Shown: one piece after another, positions 3,858 through 23,207 of the stretch
How the letters are laid out: each line of letters starts with the position of its first letter
Position numbering within the stretch: position 1 is the stretch's first letter
Virus record (IMG/VR): IMGVR_UViG_3300014911_000025
Location: 1 to 26,224 of that record
Direction: 5' to 3' (one strand)
From: a virus
Length of the DNA stretch: 26,224 bases
Made by a program: the position numbers and the translations under genes
The notes under the pieces: model-generated
The model's input: only the letters and a program-made list of their open reading frames with translations
Told to the model about the DNA's origin: nothing
The model's database searches: none

Positions 3858-4835
3858 TTAACCACCAGCAACAGCTAATTCATTGAAATTCGAGAAATTG
3901 TAAGTGACATTAACGTCACCTCCGGTTGCATCTCCACCACCATAATCAATAGATCTCAATTTATTATTACTCCCAAGATCAATAGCAAGATCAAACGGAC
4001 TCTTAAGCTGAATCTTAATTTGTTTACCGTAAGTGTTTGTCGTCAAATCACTTCTGGCGTCAATTTTATCACCTGCAGCAGTAATAGTTTCAAAAGCACT
4101 TGTTACCTCAATTGGATAACTAGGTATTTTTGTGTACGGTTTTCTCTGACCTAGTCGATAAATGTCTCGGCGAGAAAAGTCCGCAGAAATAGTTATTGTT
4201 TGCAAATGGTCATCAAGGGATGCCCCAGTATAAGGCATTCCACCAGCACCGCTTGGGAATATACTATTAACCAAATCTAAATCCTGTCTACGCGCAACAG
4301 CAGGAACAGTTTCGCCACCAGAGAAGAATCCATCAGGGACATCTCCGCCTATGGTCCACGCCATAGAATCGTCTACTCCACTAGCCCACATTTTATCATT
4401 TCCAACGACCGTAACTCTCTCTGTAGCAACACCTTCAACAGGCATTGTAAATGTCCAGTTATTCAAATACATCCCAGAACAATAACATGCCGCAACAGCA
4501 TAACCACTAGAGGCAGTTTGGCTGTCCGAATAAATTAGTAATGCCATATCAAATTTCTGGGTCAAACGACCAGGAAGGTCATCACCATCAGTAGTACAGT
4601 AGTCCCACAAAGTAGGAGTTCCATCAATAACTCTTTCTATGGTACCCTCAACAGCCGGCATCGTTTCAACGTCAGCATAGATCTGCAATTGACCGAGCTG
4701 ATAAGTCTGTTCGGTTTCAAATGTCGTCGTAAGACCTACAGACTGAACACCAGAAACAGGATACCATGTATCACTACCAGTATCCCTAAGGTGAACTGCG
4801 TGTATCGCATAAAATACATGTTCGTTATTAGGCAC
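3858..4835 (-). CDS. Major tail protein (tail tube)
   Basis: The product has 325 residues starting at GTG 4835, preceded by AAGGAGGTG. It is beta-rich with many Thr, Gly and Asp residues. Residues 20-70 contain a pattern typical of tail tube subunits, a strand-turn-strand block followed by VEGTIERVIDG. The second half has a repeat-like beta region (DLDLVNSIFPSGAGG, then LQTITISADFSRRDIYRLG). Tail tube proteins stack as rings around the tape measure and form the DNA conduit. The gene sits after the tail terminator-like gene and before the chaperone-like genes, has its own promoter-like motif upstream and a strong terminator downstream, as expected for a high-copy protein. No sheath gene is adjacent. 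Confidence 0.8.
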   Translation of the reverse strand: MPNNEHVFYAIHAVHLRDTGSDTWYPVSGVQSVGLTTTFETEQTYQLGQLQIYADVETMPAVEGTIERVIDGTPTLWDYCTTDGDDLPGRLTQKFDMALLIYSDSQTASSGYAVAACYCSGMYLNNWTFTMPVEGVATERVTVVGNDKMWASGVDDSMAWTIGGDVPDGFFSGGETVPAVARRQDLDLVNSIFPSGAGGMPYTGASLDDHLQTITISADFSRRDIYRLGQRKPYTKIPSYPIEVTSAFETITAAGDKIDARSDLTTNTYGKQIKIQLKSPFDLAIDLGSNNKLRSIDYGGGDATGGDVNVTYNFSNFNELAVAGG

Positions 4836-4911: not shown

Positions 4912-5757
4912 TTATACGTTATAAAACCTAAGGGTAATTTGCGCCAATCCCCCTTCGTAATAATCCAAATCAACACTATTATATACAATTCTTCTAACCC
5001 AACATTGACCACAAGAATAATTATCTTGCCAATTTGAAAAATGAAAATCGTTAGCAATACTTCCATATTCATCAAATATTTCTGGGGCACTATCAAAATC
5101 AATTATTTTTAATCTAATTTCTTCTTTTTCTTTAAGTGTTTCTAATATATTATCTCTATCTACTAAATTATCTGCAATGACATAAACATTAAACCAGTAC
5201 TCAACATTCTTGCCACCACCAAGCTGATAACCCCCTATTGTTCCAGCTCTATAAAGTTCATAAAATACAATAGGCATTTTAGAAAGCGTCCCGCTTGGGA
5301 TTGTTTCCGGTCTATTAAAGACATCACTAAACAACCTTCTATCATTAGCTACATTATAAACAGCCACAGTATTATACGAGAATTCTCCAACCACAGAAGC
5401 CGTTACAGATTGGGGGGTGTCAAAAATTACTCTACCATTCAAATAATCAACATGTACCCCACTCCCATTAGGGATAAAAACATTATCAACATAGACACCA
5501 CTACAAATAATCAAATCGGTATAACCACTTGGCGCAGAAACATCCTGGTCAAACACGAAATTATCATAATAACTTTCCCAAACTGTCCCTTCGGGATAAC
5601 TAGGATCATGCGACAAAGTAAACCTATCATATTTTATATTTTGGAACCAACCAGTGAGACCAGATGTTACAGTATTATACCCACCGGCATTAGCAAACGT
5701 ATTTCTAAGCCAATAATCCATGGTTTTTTGTATATTTGTAAGTCTCTTATTTATCAT
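4912..5757 (-). CDS. Tail terminator / tail completion-like protein
   Basis: The product has 281 residues. Its ATG overlaps the stop of the gene above (TAATG at 5755-5759). The N-terminal helix (MINKRLTNIQKTMDYWLRN) leads into a Gly/Tyr/Thr-rich beta insertion (about 25-135). The last half reads like the conserved part of tail terminators: KMPIVFYEL, then EYWFNVYVIADNLVDRDN (about 195-212), helix ILETLKEKEEIRL, and a closing strand AQITLRFYNV. Tail terminators cap the finished tube and join it to the head. Position just before the major tail gene supports this. The insertion makes it longer than the usual 130 to 180 residues of the family. The family is assigned from synteny and pattern, not from a search. 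Confidence 0.55.
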   Translation of the reverse strand: MINKRLTNIQKTMDYWLRNTFANAGGYNTVTSGLTGWFQNIKYDRFTLSHDPSYPEGTVWESYYDNFVFDQDVSAPSGYTDLIICSGVYVDNVFIPNGSGVHVDYLNGRVIFDTPQSVTASVVGEFSYNTVAVYNVANDRRLFSDVFNRPETIPSGTLSKMPIVFYELYRAGTIGGYQLGGGKNVEYWFNVYVIADNLVDRDNILETLKEKEEIRLKIIDFDSAPEIFDEYGSIANDFHFSNWQDNYSCGQCWVRRIVYNSVDLDYYEGGLAQITLRFYNV

Positions 5758-14877: not shown

Positions 14878-15900
14878 TTAAGCACGCCAACCAATAGACA
14901 GTAGACGGTTTGCATTAAGAACAGCAAAACCAACTCGCATCCAGCCGTACACGCCCATACGACCCTTTTTATGGAGTTCCATATCATCAAATACCTCAAG
15001 ATCACCGCGCAAAGCAAACACGAAACTATCACGATGGTCATCCGTAAGATCGAAACCAATACCAATTTCGTCATACGTAGAATCACCGGTAATCGAGGTC
15101 CATTCATTCTGGTAAGCCTGACCGGCACCGAAATCGTACAGCTCGTTAATTCTTACACCAAACAAACTCTCAGTAGGCTGAGAACCAGGTTTCTGCAACA
15201 GTTCATACCGAGTTCTGTCATCCATAAAGTTTTCACTATTAACATACGTAGCAGAGTCACGCAAATCTTTAAAAGCCTCAGGGCTAACATACAGATCCGT
15301 CAACTTAGCGCCACGTTCGATTCGAGCCATAGCGTTTTGAGCTTTAGATACCAGCCTGTGGCTGAATATACCAGAAACAGCCGAAGAATCACCATCACAT
15401 GTTATTGTGCTCTTTGTCCCGCCGTTATACGCACCATAAAGAATCGTTTTCCAACCGTCGTCATTGAGCTTTTTAGTAAAACCATCACGGAAAATCTTGA
15501 TAGCTCTACCAACAACATCCCAATTTGCATCGTTGGCAAGATCCAAATCCCAATCAATAGAATTTTCTATCTTGTATGTTTTAACAAATATTTCATCTCC
15601 ATCAACATGTTTTTCAGGTATACCTCCATGGCGAGGCATAACATACGCGCTAAAGTCATCAACATGATCCGGATTTATAATGTCGATAGGATACCTCAAA
15701 GCCTCATCTTTGTTTACATTAACGGTTGAATAGATATTGCCAATGGTATTACCCTCAACAATCACAGCCTTCCGTATAGGTGCAACTAGCTGAGCCGCAA
15801 AGGCTTTGCGGGCATTACCCGCGGTTTCTGGATTCTCACTAGCACACGCACGAAGAGCCTCTTTCATATTATCGTCAATTACAAATTTGTCTTCTTTCAA
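14878..15900 (-). CDS. Major capsid protein (HK97 fold)
   Basis: The product has 340 residues. The start is TTG 15900 with GGGAGGTG 8 bases before; the first in-frame ATG (codon 12) has no ribosome site. An N-terminal helix (MKEALRACASENPETAGNAR) is followed by a segment like the HK97 E-loop (about 60-110), a long helix with KIFRDGFTKKLNDDGWKTIL, the P-domain region (KLTDLYVSPEAFKDLRDSAT), and a C-terminus typical of the family (KGRMGVYGWMRVGFAVLNAN). Hundreds of copies form the capsid shell. It follows protease/scaffold and decoration genes and precedes a terminator. The first residues may be removed by the protease, which I cannot place from sequence. Confidence 0.88.
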   Translation of the reverse strand: MKEDKFVIDDNMKEALRACASENPETAGNARKAFAAQLVAPIRKAVIVEGNTIGNIYSTVNVNKDEALRYPIDIINPDHVDDFSAYVMPRHGGIPEKHVDGDEIFVKTYKIENSIDWDLDLANDANWDVVGRAIKIFRDGFTKKLNDDGWKTILYGAYNGGTKSTITCDGDSSAVSGIFSHRLVSKAQNAMARIERGAKLTDLYVSPEAFKDLRDSATYVNSENFMDDRTRYELLQKPGSQPTESLFGVRINELYDFGAGQAYQNEWTSITGDSTYDEIGIGFDLTDDHRDSFVFALRGDLEVFDDMELHKKGRMGVYGWMRVGFAVLNANRLLSIGWRA

Positions 15901-15945: not shown

Positions 15946-16443
15946 TTAGGCAAACGTATTAATCTGGATCTTAGCATATCCATCAGAATCTTTGCCCGAC
16001 AAGAACCATCCAATCTGTTTCCTCGTATACGTACCAGTATCATCAACCGTAACATCATAAGTGCTGTCGGTCGTAATTTTACCGGAACTAGCAACATATG
16101 CGCCAGAACCAGCTGCAGGAACATCCCCATCAACTATCTGATCTGTGGTAACGACACCTATAGTCAAAATATTGATAGGTTCGCCGCTTCCAACTACGTT
16201 TTTATAAACATTTTCGGGACGGGTTAATGTTCCGAGATTGCTCTTGGTATAATTATTGTCTACTTCAGTCGTCAAAATACCGATAGGGACAGCCGGCGCA
16301 ACACCAGACGTTTCAACATAAATCTGGCCCTGTGTGTTGTCATAATGACACACAACTACTCCGGGCGCTGCTGTGCCCATATTATACAAACCGCCGCTTC
16401 TCTGGATTTCCTGTACGGTAACTCGCTCTGCTTTAAGCGCCAC
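15946..16443 (-). CDS. Capsid decoration-like protein
   Basis: The product has 165 residues from GTG 16443 with GGAGGTG upstream. It is small, Gly/Val/Thr-rich and beta-structured: N-terminal MALKAERVTVQEIQRSG, then GVVVCHYDN and VPIGILTTEVDNN, a middle ILTIGVVTTDQIVDGDVPAA, and C-terminal TRKQIGWFLSGKDSDGYAKI. Decoration proteins of this shape bind and stabilise the expanded capsid, and their genes commonly lie between scaffold/protease and capsid genes, as here. I recognise the general pattern, not a named family. Confidence 0.65.
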   Translation of the reverse strand: MALKAERVTVQEIQRSGGLYNMGTAAPGVVVCHYDNTQGQIYVETSGVAPAVPIGILTTEVDNNYTKSNLGTLTRPENVYKNVVGSGEPINILTIGVVTTDQIVDGDVPAAGSGAYVASSGKITTDSTYDVTVDDTGTYTRKQIGWFLSGKDSDGYAKIQINTFA

Positions 16444-16508: not shown

Positions 16509-17207
16509 TTAACCAATGTGCAATACTTCGTTAAACCCTTGTTCAAATATTCCAATACTTTCACTAGCTTCTGTTTTTTCAGAAACTTTTGTTTCTATTT
16601 CGCTATCAATTTCGCCTTCCTGTTCAAAAATAGCCGCCTCAGCCGCCTGAGCTGTTTCGGTTTCTTTTGCTTCTATCGTATTGTGCTCTTCTTCGGCCTT
16701 TTTTTCAGGCTCGCTATTGTTTTTTGCATCATTTCTGCTAAGATCGATGGCTTCAATATACTTACTCCACTCTTCATCATCCATTTTACGGGCCGAATCC
16801 TCCAGTTTTACAATAAGCTCCGAACCATATCCTTTATCCTTAAGGCTCAAAAGTCGTTCAGAGGTCCGATGTTCATTTTTAATAGACGCCAATTCTTTAG
16901 CAAAAACTTCAATCTCTTTATCTTTTTCGACAATAGTTGCTTCTAGATCAGAAACCTTATTGTTGAGAACATCTATAGTTTCTTGAAGTTTTTCGTTTTC
17001 AGATCTCAGTTCGCTAGCCTCAGCTACCATTTCTGCCAAAGCAGAATTGATATCAACATCAGACTTGGTAGAAACCTCCTCCTCTTTATCATTAGTTTTT
17101 TCTTCAGCAACAATTTTGGTCTCTTCCTTTTCAGGGTTATCCACCAACTCTTCTTTGCTTTCAGCCGCAACAATTTCTTCGGCCTTATTGTCTTTTTTAG
17201 TTCCCAT
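16509..17207 (-). CDS. Nested scaffold protein from internal start
   Basis: The internal ATG at 17207 (residue 358 of the fusion) lies in frame, behind AAGGAGGTG at 17217-17225 with 9 bases between. The 232-residue product starts MGTKKDNKAEEIVAAE and is nearly all acidic helix with a coiled coil (about residues 60-115; ELRSENEKLQETIDVLNNKV), the usual composition of capsid scaffolds. Lambda makes its scaffold Nu3 from an internal start in the protease gene C in the same way; other phages use this plan too. A free scaffold in excess over the protease-bearing form would be expected. The start itself is seen; its use is inferred. Confidence 0.7.
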   Translation of the reverse strand: MGTKKDNKAEEIVAAESKEELVDNPEKEETKIVAEEKTNDKEEEVSTKSDVDINSALAEMVAEASELRSENEKLQETIDVLNNKVSDLEATIVEKDKEIEVFAKELASIKNEHRTSERLLSLKDKGYGSELIVKLEDSARKMDDEEWSKYIEAIDLSRNDAKNNSEPEKKAEEEHNTIEAKETETAQAAEAAIFEQEGEIDSEIETKVSEKTEASESIGIFEQGFNEVLHIG

Positions 17208-18278
17208 ATCTTTGTACACCTCCTTATCGTTTGATAAAACTTTAAATCTAGGATCGCTTAGGTATATTGTAGTGCTTCCTTTTATTAAATCTACACTACC
17301 ATTTTGGTTCATGCTTCCAATTTTATTTTGATTAATAAGATTTATGTAATCATTATTTTCAATGTCTAAGTCTATATATGCCATTTGTGCTACAGCTACA
17401 AGATTATCACTAGAAGAACTTCTGTCACCAATGTTAAGCGCTTTTGCATGCTTTTCTAAGTGCGCCCTAGCTCTTTCTTTGCTTTCAGGAGTAGCAAACT
17501 TAGTTTGAGAAAATCTCGCTAAAGCGTTACGAAGTCTACCCAAGTCTATTGTGGTATTTTCAGAACCATCTTCAACCTGATCGGTATGATGAGGCAAATG
17601 TCGTAAACTTCTAGGAACAGTTTTACCTTCTTCATCCTTTTCGCCACCGGGATCTATACTTGCAAAAGCAGCATCAGGTAAATCATTTATTTTTGTCCCA
17701 GGTGTTCCTTTCATATCCGATTGTTTGGGAGTGTCGCTTGCAACAGATACGATAACAGAAGATTTGTTAGCAGGACGACCTACAACCCCTTTCCCGGAAA
17801 ATAATATATGCCTAGGTATACGTTTTACCGTCTTTATCTGTCCTTTATCGACAATTGTCCCATTTCCCCCAAAACATCTAAGATAATCATCTAAAAAAGA
17901 AGTGTCTTCATTTCTTGCAACAATATCTTGTCCCACAAGATAATTATAATCTAGGAAATAACATTCCATACTGACACCTAATGAATCATCCTGAGAAGCT
18001 TTTATAATACTTTTGGCTTCTTCTGGGTATCTATGTTTCCAAACTACTGAATAATCCATTATATCTAACCGTCCATCGTAATTTTTGGCATCTTCCGGCG
18101 AAATTTCTTCGCCATTAGCAACCAAAACACTATCATAAATGGCACCTATTGTATATTTTGTTTTATGTTCCCAATCAACAGCTTTATTTATAGGAGTCTG
18201 ATAAGAATTTATAATTTCGTCTTTGAGGAAAACATCATCATTTTTATTTGCGCCTGTCGAAACTAAAATACTTTTCAT
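16509..18278 (-). CDS. Prohead protease fused to scaffold
   Basis: The first ATG is at 18278, giving 589 residues, but the frame is open and coding-like for 31 codons upstream (see 18279-18371). Residues 1-175 form a herpesvirus/HK97-type prohead serine protease: ILVSTGANKNDDVFL, His38 in WEHK and Ser103 in LGVSMECYF are the likely catalytic pair. Residues 198-285 hold a domain (LPDAAFASI, RSLRHLPHH, ERARAHLEKHAKAL) that also occurs in the product of 18620-19288. Residues 355-470 are acidic and coiled-coil, as in scaffolds, and the rest is acidic and helical. The protease cleaves scaffold and capsid during maturation. A perfect internal ribosome site before residue 358 should also yield the scaffold alone. 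Confidence 0.85.
   Translation of the reverse strand: MKSILVSTGANKNDDVFLKDEIINSYQTPINKAVDWEHKTKYTIGAIYDSVLVANGEEISPEDAKNYDGRLDIMDYSVVWKHRYPEEAKSIIKASQDDSLGVSMECYFLDYNYLVGQDIVARNEDTSFLDDYLRCFGGNGTIVDKGQIKTVKRIPRHILFSGKGVVGRPANKSSVIVSVASDTPKQSDMKGTPGTKINDLPDAAFASIDPGGEKDEEGKTVPRSLRHLPHHTDQVEDGSENTTIDLGRLRNALARFSQTKFATPESKERARAHLEKHAKALNIGDRSSSSDNLVAVAQMAYIDLDIENNDYINLINQNKIGSMNQNGSVDLIKGSTTIYLSDPRFKVLSNDKEVYKDMGTKKDNKAEEIVAAESKEELVDNPEKEETKIVAEEKTNDKEEEVSTKSDVDINSALAEMVAEASELRSENEKLQETIDVLNNKVSDLEATIVEKDKEIEVFAKELASIKNEHRTSERLLSLKDKGYGSELIVKLEDSARKMDDEEWSKYIEAIDLSRNDAKNNSEPEKKAEEEHNTIEAKETETAQAAEAAIFEQEGEIDSEIETKVSEKTEASESIGIFEQGFNEVLHIG
17217..17225 (-). promoter_or_regulatory. Internal Shine-Dalgarno for nested scaffold
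   Basis: Minus-strand AAGGAGGTG is one of the strongest ribosome binding sites in the window, although it lies within a coding region (codons for KEV). It is 9 bases before the in-frame ATG at 17207 and falls where the protease-linked domain ends and the acidic scaffold begins. Confidence 0.75.
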
Positions 18279-18371
18279 GTATAAGAGATCCGGCTGCTTG
18301 TCTTTGACAAAATAATCTTGGCTTACTCCAGCAATAGCAACGTTTTTCGCATTAATACTTACTTTATCCAG
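18279..18371 (-). other. Probable N-terminal extension of protease, CTG start
   Basis: Upstream of ATG 18278 the same frame is open to a TGA at 18380-18378. The codons give LDKVSINAKNVAIAGVSQDY and on to QPDLLYMKS, which joins smoothly to the protease strand ILVSTG. A GAGAGGTG ribosome site (18379-18386) lies 7 bases before CTG 18371, while ATG 18278 has none. No ATG, GTG or TTG occurs in the extension. The start may be CTG (or the nearby ATC), unless the sequence has an error here. Confidence 0.6.
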
Positions 18372-18402
18372 GATTAATCACCTCTCTTTGTTGGACATAA
18401 CA

Positions 18403-18434: not shown

Positions 18435-18611
18435 TTAGCTTTTTAACAAATCGGAAATTTCGTTGTTTAATATTTTTTTAATTTTTTCCCTTTTATATTT
18501 ACGTTTGTTTCTTTTATGAGAACTGATTTCCCCCGTTGAACGTTTTTTGTTTATTCTACGAGGCTTAGGTTTTTGTTTGCCCGAATTATTTCTGTATTTT
18601 TTTGAATGCAT
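18435..18611 (-). CDS. 58-residue very basic protein
   Basis: The frame runs from ATG 18611 to TAA, MHSKKYRNNSGKQKPKPRRI and onward, with about 22 Lys/Arg residues of 58 and a short C-terminal helix (LNNEISDLLKS). It starts 8 bases after the previous stop; the nearest purine-rich site (AAAGGG) is about 20 bases upstream, so translation may rely on coupling. Its composition suggests nucleic acid binding or neutralisation of acidic partners such as the scaffold. No family is recognised, and chance cannot be excluded for so short a frame, though it fills the space exactly between its neighbours. Confidence 0.55.
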   Translation of the reverse strand: MHSKKYRNNSGKQKPKPRRINKKRSTGEISSHKRNKRKYKREKIKKILNNEISDLLKS

Positions 18612-18619
18612 TGTTATTA

Positions 18620-19288
18620 TTAAAGTTTACCCTTTTTGTATTGAGTTTGGCAAATTTTCCACGCTGAACTTTTAATCTCTTTCAGAGCTTCTTTGTCTGG
18701 TTTTTTCCCATATTTTTTTTTATAATCTTTTATTTTTTGTTCCGTAACAGCCTTAACACAATCATCAACTACCTGTGGCGCCATTGTTGTTTTATATTCA
18801 TTAAACACATGCGCCATCAAATGTTTTTTAGCTTTTTCTAATTTTGCTTTAGGACCTTTTGCGGTTTTAAGCAAATTAAGGGCTTCTGAAACCATTCTCA
18901 TATTAACTGTTCCGTCTTCATTGTGATGCGCAAACCGACGATACTTATGATGATCTTTGATCTGTATCATAGCAAATGCACTATCTGGCAATTTTGCTAA
19001 ACTTTTTTGTACACTAGCAATTGTATTATTGTCGGCACGAATAGGCATACTTTCAGTCACAACACCTTCAAGACCATTTTTTACATCAGCCTCACCAGGT
19101 TTTTCCAAAACAAACCCGGTATCAACACGTATACCGTCTTTTGTTTGGTAAGACCACCTAACATTAATTACACTCCACTCTTTAGACCTGTAACAACCAA
19201 TGCCAAACTCGGTTGCTTTTATTGGTTCACCCTGAACATCAAACAAAATATTATCAAAACTGTTTACAATAAGTCTTGCGATACTCAT
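18620..19288 (-). CDS. Head-module protein sharing the protease-linked domain
   Basis: The product has 222 residues from ATG 19288 with AAAAGGAGGATAAA upstream. Residues 1-75 are beta-rich and include IGCYRSKEWSVINVRWSYQT. Residues 100-160 (LPDSAFAMI, RRFAHHNEDG, EKAKKHLMAH) align in order with residues 200-281 of the protease fusion. The C-terminal 45 residues form a basic helical segment ending SAWKICQTQYKKGKL, a pattern I associate with proteins encoded beside phage proteases. The location between portal and protease points to a head assembly role. The domain seems to be a small helical fold with paired His residues; its function is unknown. Confidence 0.6.
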   Translation of the reverse strand: MSIARLIVNSFDNILFDVQGEPIKATEFGIGCYRSKEWSVINVRWSYQTKDGIRVDTGFVLEKPGEADVKNGLEGVVTESMPIRADNNTIASVQKSLAKLPDSAFAMIQIKDHHKYRRFAHHNEDGTVNMRMVSEALNLLKTAKGPKAKLEKAKKHLMAHVFNEYKTTMAPQVVDDCVKAVTEQKIKDYKKKYGKKPDKEALKEIKSSAWKICQTQYKKGKL

Positions 19289-19300
19289 TTTATCCTCCTT

Positions 19301-21187
19301 TTATTGATTTGCTATATTATAAGCTTCAGTATGCGATTTTCCATTTTGGATAGCCTTTCCGTAAAGATACACAAATTCTGGATACTTGTTAATAAATCTT
19401 TTTTTATAATCAGAAACTATATTTTTTATATTTTTTCCAGTAGGCGGGAGACCTTCCTGAGAACACACATATGTTACAGCAGAAATAATAAGCTCTATGG
19501 AATTTTCTTTTATGTCTGGATAAAGCAATCTTACTTGGCGTTCAATATATTCTCTAGACGCTCCAGTCGGTTTAGTATCGCGAGTTTTTTCTTGCTTCTT
19601 TTTTTCACCCGGAGGACGTCCGCCATAATTAGGATCGGTATCTACGTTGGTTGTTCTTTTTTGACCAATCTTAATACTTTCGACCTGAGGATTAAGAAGA
19701 ATATTTTCTTCTCGTCTTATCTTTTCTTCTTCTCGCATTCTTTGAACCTCAACATCCTTATCAATACCCAAAAGATCCATAAGCGTCTCATAAGAAATAA
19801 GTTGCCTGTCAGCCATTTTAATAAGAACATTCTTTTCTTGTATTTCGTCACGAAGAGTCATTTTGTTAAATGTTACATGTGGCAACTTTCTAAATCCCAT
19901 CGCCCTACAAATGTCTTTAAGATCCTTATAAATCCATTCGTTAAGAATAATTCCTCTTGCGGTTTCTAATTTTTCCAAAAGACCTTTTACTGCTAAATAA
20001 GAATTGGCATAGCTCCCGCCTTTACCTCCTCCTCCAAGAAGAACTTCAGGGATACCAAGACCATACGTAATGTCCTTATTAACTGCTTCATATTTTTGGC
20101 TACCCAAAATATCACCAACTGGAGGATAGTCGGTTTGCATTTCAATACCTTCATGCCATATAATATCTTTGCTTTTAGTTTGCTTTTGAAGCATAGCAGC
20201 AAGCTTTCTAAATTCAACAGGACTGGGGTCAAGACCTTCTTTTATTTTTCCCAATTTCCACAGTGTTTTAGCATATATGATTCCGTTCATCACACTTATA
20301 TCCATAAGACGCATCTGTTTTTTATATTTCAGATCTTCTAATATAGAGGCAATAAGGGGTTCAGCCATATCTTGAAAATCATCTTTTTTATATGCGAGAT
20401 AAACAATACGGTCATTATCAAGTACTATTCTATTTCCCTTACCCATTGTAGTTGTATTAAATAATTTTTTAATGTCGGCGCTCATAGGATCGTCATCGTT
20501 TGTTAGGGCATTAATTACATTCGGGGATAAATAATATTCAACTACAGGTTTGGTAAAGAAATCATAATTTTTAATGTTAATATTTTCAGGGTTAAGAATA
20601 ACATATCTGACCGGAATAGAATTTTTTTTGTTGGGAGTTTTAAAAATATCAAAATCCTCTTCTTTAACAAGCTCCATTTTTCCAGAATATCTTTTGTCTC
20701 TTTCAAATTTTCCGTAGATTTTATATATTACAACATTAGCTGCCTTAAACAAAAGGTTAGCAACTCTTTCTATTCTGTTTTCAAGATTGGTCAATTTAAC
20801 CCATGCAGAAAAGAATTTTTCTACACTCGGATTAGAGTGATAAAATTTAAGACCATCAGCAGTAAAATCGCTCATTAGATCAACTACATTTTTAATAACC
20901 CCAACAGTTTTATACATATCAATGCATTCTTTTATGACACTTTGAGGTCCGGTAGGTTTAGAGTACAGTCCGCCACGATATGTTTTAAACTCATCTCGTC
21001 TCAACGACTCGCTAATATATGTTGAACCGGCAGTATATAAATCATTTTCATTTATTTTGCGTCCGGTGTAAGCTTCACTTGTATCTATTTGTTTTGTAAA
21101 TTCGGCAAGAGCATCTCGAACTTTTTGGGCACGATATTTAGATATTCCTGGCGATACAACTTTCTGAACAACAGGTTTTTCTTTCAA
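19301..21187 (-). CDS. Portal protein
   Basis: The product has 628 residues from TTG 21187, with AAGGAGGTG 6 bases before; no in-frame ATG with a ribosome site exists near it. Residues 75-160 (GPQSVIKECIDMYKTVGVIK, then VEKFFSAWVKLTNLENRIER) form the helical wing start. Residues 280-300 are helical. Residues 376-400 carry the Gly-rich segment GLGIPEVLLGGGGKGGSYAN followed by SYLAVKGLLEKL, a hallmark of phage portals, and 415-450 the stem/crown junction. A Lys/Glu/Pro linker (505-540) precedes a C-terminal helical domain (550-628) beyond the standard portal. Twelve copies form the DNA entry channel and dock the terminase. The gene directly follows the large terminase. Confidence 0.85.
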   Translation of the reverse strand: MKEKPVVQKVVSPGISKYRAQKVRDALAEFTKQIDTSEAYTGRKINENDLYTAGSTYISESLRRDEFKTYRGGLYSKPTGPQSVIKECIDMYKTVGVIKNVVDLMSDFTADGLKFYHSNPSVEKFFSAWVKLTNLENRIERVANLLFKAANVVIYKIYGKFERDKRYSGKMELVKEEDFDIFKTPNKKNSIPVRYVILNPENINIKNYDFFTKPVVEYYLSPNVINALTNDDDPMSADIKKLFNTTTMGKGNRIVLDNDRIVYLAYKKDDFQDMAEPLIASILEDLKYKKQMRLMDISVMNGIIYAKTLWKLGKIKEGLDPSPVEFRKLAAMLQKQTKSKDIIWHEGIEMQTDYPPVGDILGSQKYEAVNKDITYGLGIPEVLLGGGGKGGSYANSYLAVKGLLEKLETARGIILNEWIYKDLKDICRAMGFRKLPHVTFNKMTLRDEIQEKNVLIKMADRQLISYETLMDLLGIDKDVEVQRMREEEKIRREENILLNPQVESIKIGQKRTTNVDTDPNYGGRPPGEKKKQEKTRDTKPTGASREYIERQVRLLYPDIKENSIELIISAVTYVCSQEGLPPTGKNIKNIVSDYKKRFINKYPEFVYLYGKAIQNGKSHTEAYNIANQ

Positions 21188-21248: not shown

Positions 21249-23207
21249 TTAAAATAAACTACAAACTTCGTTGTCGGTTACTACAAACCCTCTATCGCCC
21301 TGAGGAACTTTTCTAACTTTAATATCCTGGTCAACTCTTATTTCGCCGCCAGCAAACTCGTCCACAAACCCTCCAATGGGTGTTTTAACTTTTGCGCTTT
21401 CTATCACGTCGCTTATCCCAACATGCATTACGTGACGAGCCGCATACGAACCAAGAAGAATAGCAGAATATCTGTCTTTTCTCGTAACAGAATCTACACC
21501 CATAAGTTTATCAATATCAAAATGTTCTTTACCTGTATGTCCAGTGGCAGTAACAATAATACTTGTCATTTCTCTTTTAGCTTCTTTTATTTCTTCTAAA
21601 ATTTTATCTAGATCTTCTTTTCTCCCACTTTTGCCATATAAAAATCCAGGGACAAAAGTAGGGGGGAATAAACATCGATTATTTTCTAGATCACTTCGCA
21701 AGCCATGGTTAGCTTTACTTATCCAATCTTGATTAAATCCTATCATTTCAAGAATATGTAATCCAATATTAGATGCTGTTTCTTTGTTGTTAGCTTCCCA
21801 GATTAGGCTTTCCCCGGCTGGGGTATTGGTAGGATCTTGCAAAATATCACGTATAGCGTGTCCTCCACCACCCGAATCCATCGCTAAATAACAGGTAGTC
21901 GGATAAGCTTTTAGTTTTGCGCGTATCATTCTTGCCATATTAGGATAAGAAAATTTATTTAAAACGACCATATCTACTAAAGCATAAAAATCTTCATGTA
22001 GCTCAAAAATAGCCATGGCAAAATTATCATGCCATCTTGCCGGGTCTACACCAATAACATATTTTTTCCCGCCATCTCCATGTGTTTTAATGTAGAACGA
22101 CATTCTGCCGTCAGGTGAGGGAGAAACAGTAGCATTGTTTAATGTTGACATTTTAAAAAATCCTTCTGTATCGTCACCAAATCTTGCCATAAACTCCATG
22201 TCAAACTCTGGTTTAGACATAGACATTTTAGCGTCACTAATAATTTTCTTATCCAAAAAACCATCAGGAAGTTTTGTGTACGGAATCTGAATAATACAAA
22301 AATCTTTATAGTTTACGTTTTGGCCTTCGCCGTCCTGATTATATCCAAAAATTTCTGGATAATTTAATGTAGAACCAACAATTTTATTATCTATTATTTT
22401 TTTATATAAATCATAAGTTTTATACATATGGTTAAATTTCCAAGAAGCAGTACCAGAAAGAATAATTTGGTTACCTCTAAATTCCTCGTCTTCGTCTTCT
22501 ATGATAGCTCCTTGTTCAATAAGCATTTCTTTTGCAGCTATATCTTTGGCTGTAGCAACAGGATCCTGAGAGACAACAGCAAAACCACGAATAACAACGT
22601 CAAAAATTGTTTCGGGAATAGTAGCGAACTCATCAGCTAAAATAACATGTGCACGCAAACCTCTTATTCCTCCGCCCATTATTCCTAACGGAACAGCACT
22701 AATAGTAGATGTGCCAATCTGCATTTTCCATATGTCAGGCAAGTGTTGTGGTTCACGTATAGAGGCGCTTTTTTGAAGAACAGAAGATCTGGAGTAAATA
22801 TTTGACACATAATCAAAAATTACTTTTGCTTGTCGCCAACAACTGCCAACCATAACAATTTTGCAATTTGGCTGTAAAAGAGCTTTCATTAAAGCATAAA
22901 CAGCACAAATAAAACTTTTACTAGCACCACGGCTACTCACATTTAAAAGAAAAGGGTGCGTGAACATTTCTTTTAGTATTGCTAACTGAAACACAGCCAA
23001 ATCAATTCCAAGAACATATTTAGACATCCACCACAAATTTTGCTGACACATTGTTGCAAATTCTGTTTTTGCGTCATAACATACGTCGGGATTGATGGGT
23101 TTGGGAATAGAAGAAATTAGTTCTGGATTATTAAAATCAAACGCCCAAGGCAAATCAAGTTTTTTTAAACTGGGGAAAACTCTAATATCTTGTTTTCTTT
23201 TTTTCAT
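21249..23207 (-). CDS. Terminase large subunit
   Basis: The product has 652 residues. Its ATG overlaps the stop of the ERCC4 gene (TAATG). The ATPase domain has Walker A SSRGASKS (91-98), Walker B HVILADE (187-193) and coupling motif SGTAS (251-255). The RNase H-like nuclease domain has D388 in GVDPAR, D444 in LAMDSGGGG and D572/D578 in GVDSVTRKDR. The enzyme cuts concatemeric DNA and pumps it through the portal into the prohead. All key residues are present, so it should be active. Subfamily and packaging mode cannot be settled from this sequence alone. Confidence 0.95.
   Translation of the reverse strand: MKKRKQDIRVFPSLKKLDLPWAFDFNNPELISSIPKPINPDVCYDAKTEFATMCQQNLWWMSKYVLGIDLAVFQLAILKEMFTHPFLLNVSSRGASKSFICAVYALMKALLQPNCKIVMVGSCWRQAKVIFDYVSNIYSRSSVLQKSASIREPQHLPDIWKMQIGTSTISAVPLGIMGGGIRGLRAHVILADEFATIPETIFDVVIRGFAVVSQDPVATAKDIAAKEMLIEQGAIIEDEDEEFRGNQIILSGTASWKFNHMYKTYDLYKKIIDNKIVGSTLNYPEIFGYNQDGEGQNVNYKDFCIIQIPYTKLPDGFLDKKIISDAKMSMSKPEFDMEFMARFGDDTEGFFKMSTLNNATVSPSPDGRMSFYIKTHGDGGKKYVIGVDPARWHDNFAMAIFELHEDFYALVDMVVLNKFSYPNMARMIRAKLKAYPTTCYLAMDSGGGGHAIRDILQDPTNTPAGESLIWEANNKETASNIGLHILEMIGFNQDWISKANHGLRSDLENNRCLFPPTFVPGFLYGKSGRKEDLDKILEEIKEAKREMTSIIVTATGHTGKEHFDIDKLMGVDSVTRKDRYSAILLGSYAARHVMHVGISDVIESAKVKTPIGGFVDEFAGGEIRVDQDIKVRKVPQGDRGFVVTDNEVCSLF

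Follow-up and report, generated by a model that had tools for sequence, protein, structure and literature searches.

In phage lambda the scaffold, Nu3, is nested in the same frame within gene C for the head protease, of which it makes up the C-terminal part; the C protein is a ClpP-like S49 peptidase and contacts Nu3. The scaffold of phage T4, gp22, has a separate gene. Mu and Mu-like phages of Pseudomonas possess an in-frame scaffold start within the protease gene (PMC4378225). In herpesviruses, UL26 and UL26.5 give a fusion and an in-frame, C-terminally identical scaffold, which is the major form, while scaffold from the long form makes up just about 10% of the total (PMC12474303); the short form is made from an internal promoter (PMC2949831). 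The nested protease/scaffold arrangement and its mechanism are already known from lambda, Mu and the herpesviruses.

In this work we analysed a stretch of 26,224 bases with 35.5% GC, an IMG/VR virus record, hereafter called the window. Our analysis indicated that an internal start at 17207 is very probably used to make the scaffold, so that one frame would give two 3′-coterminal products. New here are the phage lineage, the depth of conservation, and a domain inserted in the gene of the window.

Head-gene context

The genes of the window are ordered terminase, portal, protease-scaffold gene, 165-aa protein, and capsid protein (Table 1), an order that agrees with head assembly. The capsid family was related to gp27 of phage G (profile match to 6wkk, E 4e-12; hhalign probability 97%, E 1e-11) and also matched the PHROG of major head proteins. 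The main head and tail genes start with TTG, GTG or CTG behind strong Shine-Dalgarno (SD) sequences (14772, 15900, 16443, 18371, and 21187, minus strand), unlike the nested scaffold, whose start is ATG. A short, strongly basic Lys/Arg-rich frame ending ...KKILNNEISDLLKS was also seen on the minus strand at 18437-18620, between gene 18620-19288 and the protease gene; it is absent from the list of open reading frames at 60 aa.

Table 1. Features of the head-gene region and of the protease-scaffold gene in the window.
Feature	Position	Strand	Evidence or remark
Large terminase subunit	21249..23207	-	profile searches
Portal protein	19301..21187	-	phrog_9232, E 1e-8
SD region for the long product, caaagagaggtgattaatc ahead of the CTG	18372..18390	-	-15.8 kcal/mol
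Full-length protease-scaffold gene, 620 codons, CTG start	16509..18371	-	homology of residues 5-217 to the syntenic gene in 40/40 contigs
Predicted protease domain, residues 25-213, assemblin / T4 gp21 fold	17733..18299	-	predicted structure, alignment
Invariant His69	18167-18165	-	alignment
Invariant Ser134	17972-17970	-	alignment
Inserted mobile domain of ~90 aa, residues 226-326, weakly DUF6582-like	17394..17696	-	homology searches
Low-confidence linker from inserted domain to scaffold start, holding the internal SD	17208..17393	-	predicted structure
Internal SD, AAGGAGGTG	17217..17225	-	sequence, duplex energy, conservation
Internal ATG, predicted start codon of nested scaffold	17205..17207	-	sequence, conservation
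Predicted nested gene for an acidic 232-aa scaffold; long helix spanning residues 429-512 of the full-length protein	16509..17207	-	predicted structure
165-aa protein between scaffold and capsid genes, phage G decoration-protein position	15946..16443	-	context
Major capsid protein, phage G gp27-like	14878..15900	-	profile matches

The long gene and its domains

The start of the long product was assigned to CTG 18371 because the frame contains no ATG, GTG or TTG before 18278. This weak start codon stands behind a strong SD, gagaggtgat. AlphaFold2 modelling with 66 sequences gave one confident domain at about residues 25-213, with pLDDT > 90 across most of residues 30-210. The predicted domain matched the assemblin (protease) of VZV (Z 11.2, rmsd 2.5, 114 aligned) and T4 gp21 (Z 9.6, rmsd 3.4, 128 aligned). 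Its structural matches in BFVD were prohead proteases and phage G gp19, the latter being second best, and a plain Foldseek search with the protease model reached a best E of 0.009. The model thus predicts a protease fold of the assemblin / T4 gp21 type. His69 and Ser134, which were invariant in the 66 sequences, are the putative catalytic residues.

Upon Pfam search, neither S49 nor Mu-like_Pro (PF10123) was matched by the window protein or by 16 homologues, a result still compatible with distant kinship to the Mu-like proteases. Pfam and PHROGs returned just coiled-coil or scattered weak matches for the protease-scaffold family, and a PDB search by sequence alone with the family profile returned nothing but coiled coils. 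Residues 389-620 are acidic and contain the long helix. No characterised scaffold matched the nested product in sequence; the coiled-coil prediction, the position of the product, and the analogy with known systems support its assignment as a predicted scaffold.

The initial annotation had placed the internal start exactly where the protease-linked half of the protein gives way to an acidic coiled coil. The coiled coil does follow the site, but the protease does not extend to it, ending at about residue 213, and residues 226-326 form a separate mobile domain that had been missed. The assignments of a protease and a coiled coil as such are backed by the predicted structure and the fold matches.

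The inserted mobile domain

The pattern of this domain is LPDAAFAxIxPGGEKDEEGKTxPRSLRHLPHH...HLxxHAKxL. Its fusion at the protease-scaffold junction was found in the window only, and in 0 of 271 collected relatives. The domain has a gene of its own, located upstream of the protease gene, at seven loci in five contigs of the family. Elsewhere in phages it occurs as a small stand-alone protein, together with a Mu-like protease domain (L018, L021, and L049), or ahead of an HK97-type capsid protein. One domain member gave a weak match to DUF6582, and Pfam, PHROGs and NCBIfam otherwise gave no clear match to the domain. Seventy loci from the whole-protein search matched via this domain alone (residues 228-324), neither the N-terminal nor the C-terminal part of the window protein having a match in them, and they were dropped for the start-site test.

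As the internal SD and ATG lie downstream of the inserted domain, the long product alone would carry it. It is possible, though we hold this idea tentatively, that the nested start also acts as a dosage divider, by which a head-associated, DUF6582-like cargo would ride the rarer long product into the prohead at a protease-like copy number.

The probable internal start site

The SD sequence AAGGAGGTG was found on the minus strand at 17225-17217, followed by a 9-nt spacer, TACAAAGAT, and an ATG in frame with the 620-codon open frame. This bears out the claim of an internal SD 9 bases ahead of an in-frame ATG. The frame read from this ATG is exactly 232 aa long and begins with MGTKKDNK. There are just two other exact copies of AAGGAGGTG in the 26 kb, one ahead of the start of gene 3858-4835 and one ahead of that of gene 19301-21187.

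SD strength was calculated as the energy of pairing with the anti-SD at the 3′ end of 16S rRNA. With −15.0 kcal/mol, the internal site ranked first among the 293 internal in-frame ATG, GTG and TTG codons of the window, the next one having −11.4, and its value lay among those of the window's strong gene starts, which span −12 to −17 kcal/mol. Synonymous codon shuffles within the gene produced an equally strong junction site in just 0.4-0.7% of cases. The site had been described as unlikely to be due to chance and on par with the best starts, and both the ranking and the shuffles agree with this. Local RNA structure at the site was weak (−7.8, compared with −14.2 ± 4.2 for 106 internal ATGs). 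The spacing counts against the internal start as a small flaw: GGAGG and the ATG are 11 nt apart, which exceeds the distance at the other strong starts of the window by 1-3 nt.

Conservation among relatives

A search with the capsid protein gave 40 contigs, and the gene order was identical in all 13 whose genes were mapped individually. The protease-scaffold position was occupied in 40 of 40 contigs by a gene of about 500 codons; each of these genes was homologous to the window protein over residues 5-217 (E 1e-19 to 1e-31), and the genes end in a coiled coil. Scans of viral contigs with family profiles found at least 550 relatives per scan. We collected 272 family members, the window included, nearly all of them from uncultivated phages. 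No close relative was found by a peptide-pattern search of viral contigs with the protease part or the portal, and with neither the protease-scaffold nor the capsid protein did tblastn reveal a convincing relative among isolated-phage records.

Members with less than 70% identity formed a non-redundant set of 120, and 118 of these had a tail long enough for a scaffold; L118 and L203, which have short tails, were excluded from the tail statistics. On the latter contig (L203:4764-5546) the scaffold half stands in a separate overlapping frame, and an SD-like/ATG site is still present at 4986. The apparent split was seen on one metagenome contig alone and may reflect a frameshift error.

All the 118 non-redundant full-tailed homologues have an in-frame junction start with an SD-like sequence, the start codon being ATG in 110 and GTG in eight. 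The junction sites had an exact SD core of 4 nt or longer in 99% of cases, compared with 31% of 1095 other internal ATGs; for cores of 5 nt or longer the values were 60% and 6%. Junction sites of homologues include caggagaaattaacATG, gctgaggagattactATG, cggagactataactATG, and aaggagacatatATG. The internal Met is among the alignment columns that are at least 90% conserved, and the length of the nested product is steady, mostly 190-286 aa. The alignment of homologues had been set beforehand as the refuting test, and with the SD and the in-frame ATG or GTG kept in every sequence the internal start was not refuted.

The L119/L120 group was considered as a set of exceptions without ATG, and this was rejected: GTG replaces ATG there, behind an even stronger SD (AAGGAGGTG or AAGGGGGTG, −18 to −19 kcal/mol). 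L120 itself (L120:5929-9713, CP070695.1) is a contig labelled as a Candidatus Heimdallarchaeota MAG, an Asgard archaeon chromosome, and it holds the head-gene cluster of the family, consisting of a stand-alone domain gene, the protease-scaffold gene, the 165-aa protein, and the capsid gene; a provirus or a misassembly may account for it. Another copy of the protease gene, broken and apparently interrupted, was found in the complete bacterial genome of Limnoglobus roseus (L121, chromosome NZ_CP042425.1). This suggests that the copy belongs to a prophage in decay and that the host may be a planctomycete.

Codon-level selection and other explanations

The SD-like sequence might arise incidentally from a conserved linker rich in Lys and Glu, with the fusion as the only product and the scaffold freed by self-cleavage. 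Such linkers do raise SD likeness. We took the best site within the 60-codon junction stretch of each homologue and applied the identical rule to synonymous shuffles, whose mean best energy was still −5.5 kcal/mol. The observed mean over the 118 homologues was −9.3 kcal/mol, however, and 112 of the 118 sites were stronger than the mean of their own shuffles. Fisher's combined p was about 1e-34 for the 118 sequences and about 2e-6 for 27 sequences with less than 45% identity, both values being too small because the sequences are related; the direction of the result was uniform despite this relatedness. Single homologues had a median p of 0.08, many of them not being significant by codon choice alone, and the case is thus a collective one. 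Codon choice is biased in favour of the SD beyond the needs of the protein.

The peptide ahead of the start pointed in the same direction. It is not conserved, as 67 different hexapeptides were found in 68 sequences, and the SD falls in two main codon registers. This indicates that an RNA motif has been kept and not a peptide. A linker by-product also does not explain that an in-frame start codon is always present and that GTG occurs solely behind very strong SDs. We consider self-cleavage of a sole fusion product improbable.

Intragenic SD-like sequences have been suggested to slow ribosomes, and the internal SD might accordingly cause a pause that gives the protease time to fold ahead of scaffold synthesis, with no initiation at the site. 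A pause needs no start codon, yet ATG or GTG stands downstream in 118/118, and the first G of GGAG lies mostly at −10, −12 or −13 from it. We regard pausing alone as very improbable. The least probable explanation is that two separate genes fused recently and left the site behind as a relic without present importance: the presumed protease of phage G, a distant capsid relative, is indeed encoded by a separate gene followed by acidic genes, and the split L203 contig would fit as well, but a relic would be expected to decay among homologues so diverged, and this site is kept in all 118 under codon-level selection.

Proposed mechanism

The use of the internal start to make the scaffold therefore remains our preferred reading, and what we observed for it are the site, its strength and conservation, the codon-level selection, the predicted fold and coiled coil, and the head-gene context. 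The initial annotation had proposed two products, a protease-scaffold fusion and a 232-residue scaffold; the conservation and the codon bias support this proposal, with both products being predictions. By analogy with lambda, Mu and the herpesviruses, the steps from initiation at the site to digestion of the scaffold would be the following. Ribosomes starting at CTG 18371 would make a 620-residue protein composed of an assemblin-type serine protease, the DUF6582-like domain, and the acidic coiled-coil scaffold. Ribosomes starting at AAGGAGGTG/ATG 17207 would make the 232-residue scaffold alone, probably in excess. Through the common coiled coil and C-terminus, the fusion would co-assemble with plain scaffold in the prohead and bring a few copies of the protease, with the extra domain, into it. 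After shell assembly and before DNA packaging, the protease would digest the scaffold.

If so, the known range of the nested arrangement widens to include a large, diverse lineage of uncultivated phages whose capsid protein resembles that of phage G. Gene callers normally annotate the long product alone, and the probable major scaffold is easily overlooked in this way. The 118 natural variants also offer material on how a start site persists inside a coding sequence.

Comparison with known systems

The initial annotation had likened the locus to lambda C/Nu3. The likeness holds for the organization, a nested same-frame scaffold, but not for the ancestry of the protease, which is of the S49 type in lambda and has a predicted assemblin / T4 gp21 fold in the window. 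T4 gp21 resembles the window protease in this fold, whereas the T4 scaffold is encoded in its own gene.

Phage G is the nearest isolate by capsid protein, and its head genes (gp14-gp27) share the order terminase, portal, protease-like gp19, decoration protein gp26, and capsid protein gp27. Unlike the product of the window gene, gp19 is 300 aa long without a fused scaffold, and the acidic gp20 and gp21 follow it with their own starts. Profile comparison of the window families with phage G gp19 and gp26 was not significant, and the kinship of gp19 thus rests on the fold match. In the same head-gene region (L202, 19865-21534), the annotation gives gp23 as a join of two parts that begins at the start of gp22, and gp22 is amidase-like with a LysM-type end.

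Mu I/Z and herpesvirus UL26/UL26.5 are analogues equally as good as lambda C/Nu3. Mu gene I/Z is similar to the window gene in having an internal in-frame start behind an SD and a scaffold that is the C-terminal part of the protease (PMC4378225). The two differ in the Pfam match to PF10123, which the window protein lacks, and some Mu-like protease proteins share the inserted domain of the window. The herpesvirus scaffold UL26.5 depends on an internal promoter, whereas the window is predicted to use an internal SD on one message. The herpesvirus assemblin is similar to the window protease in its modelled fold, with Z up to 11.2, and this assemblin-type protease would bring the layout of the window close to that of UL26/UL26.5.
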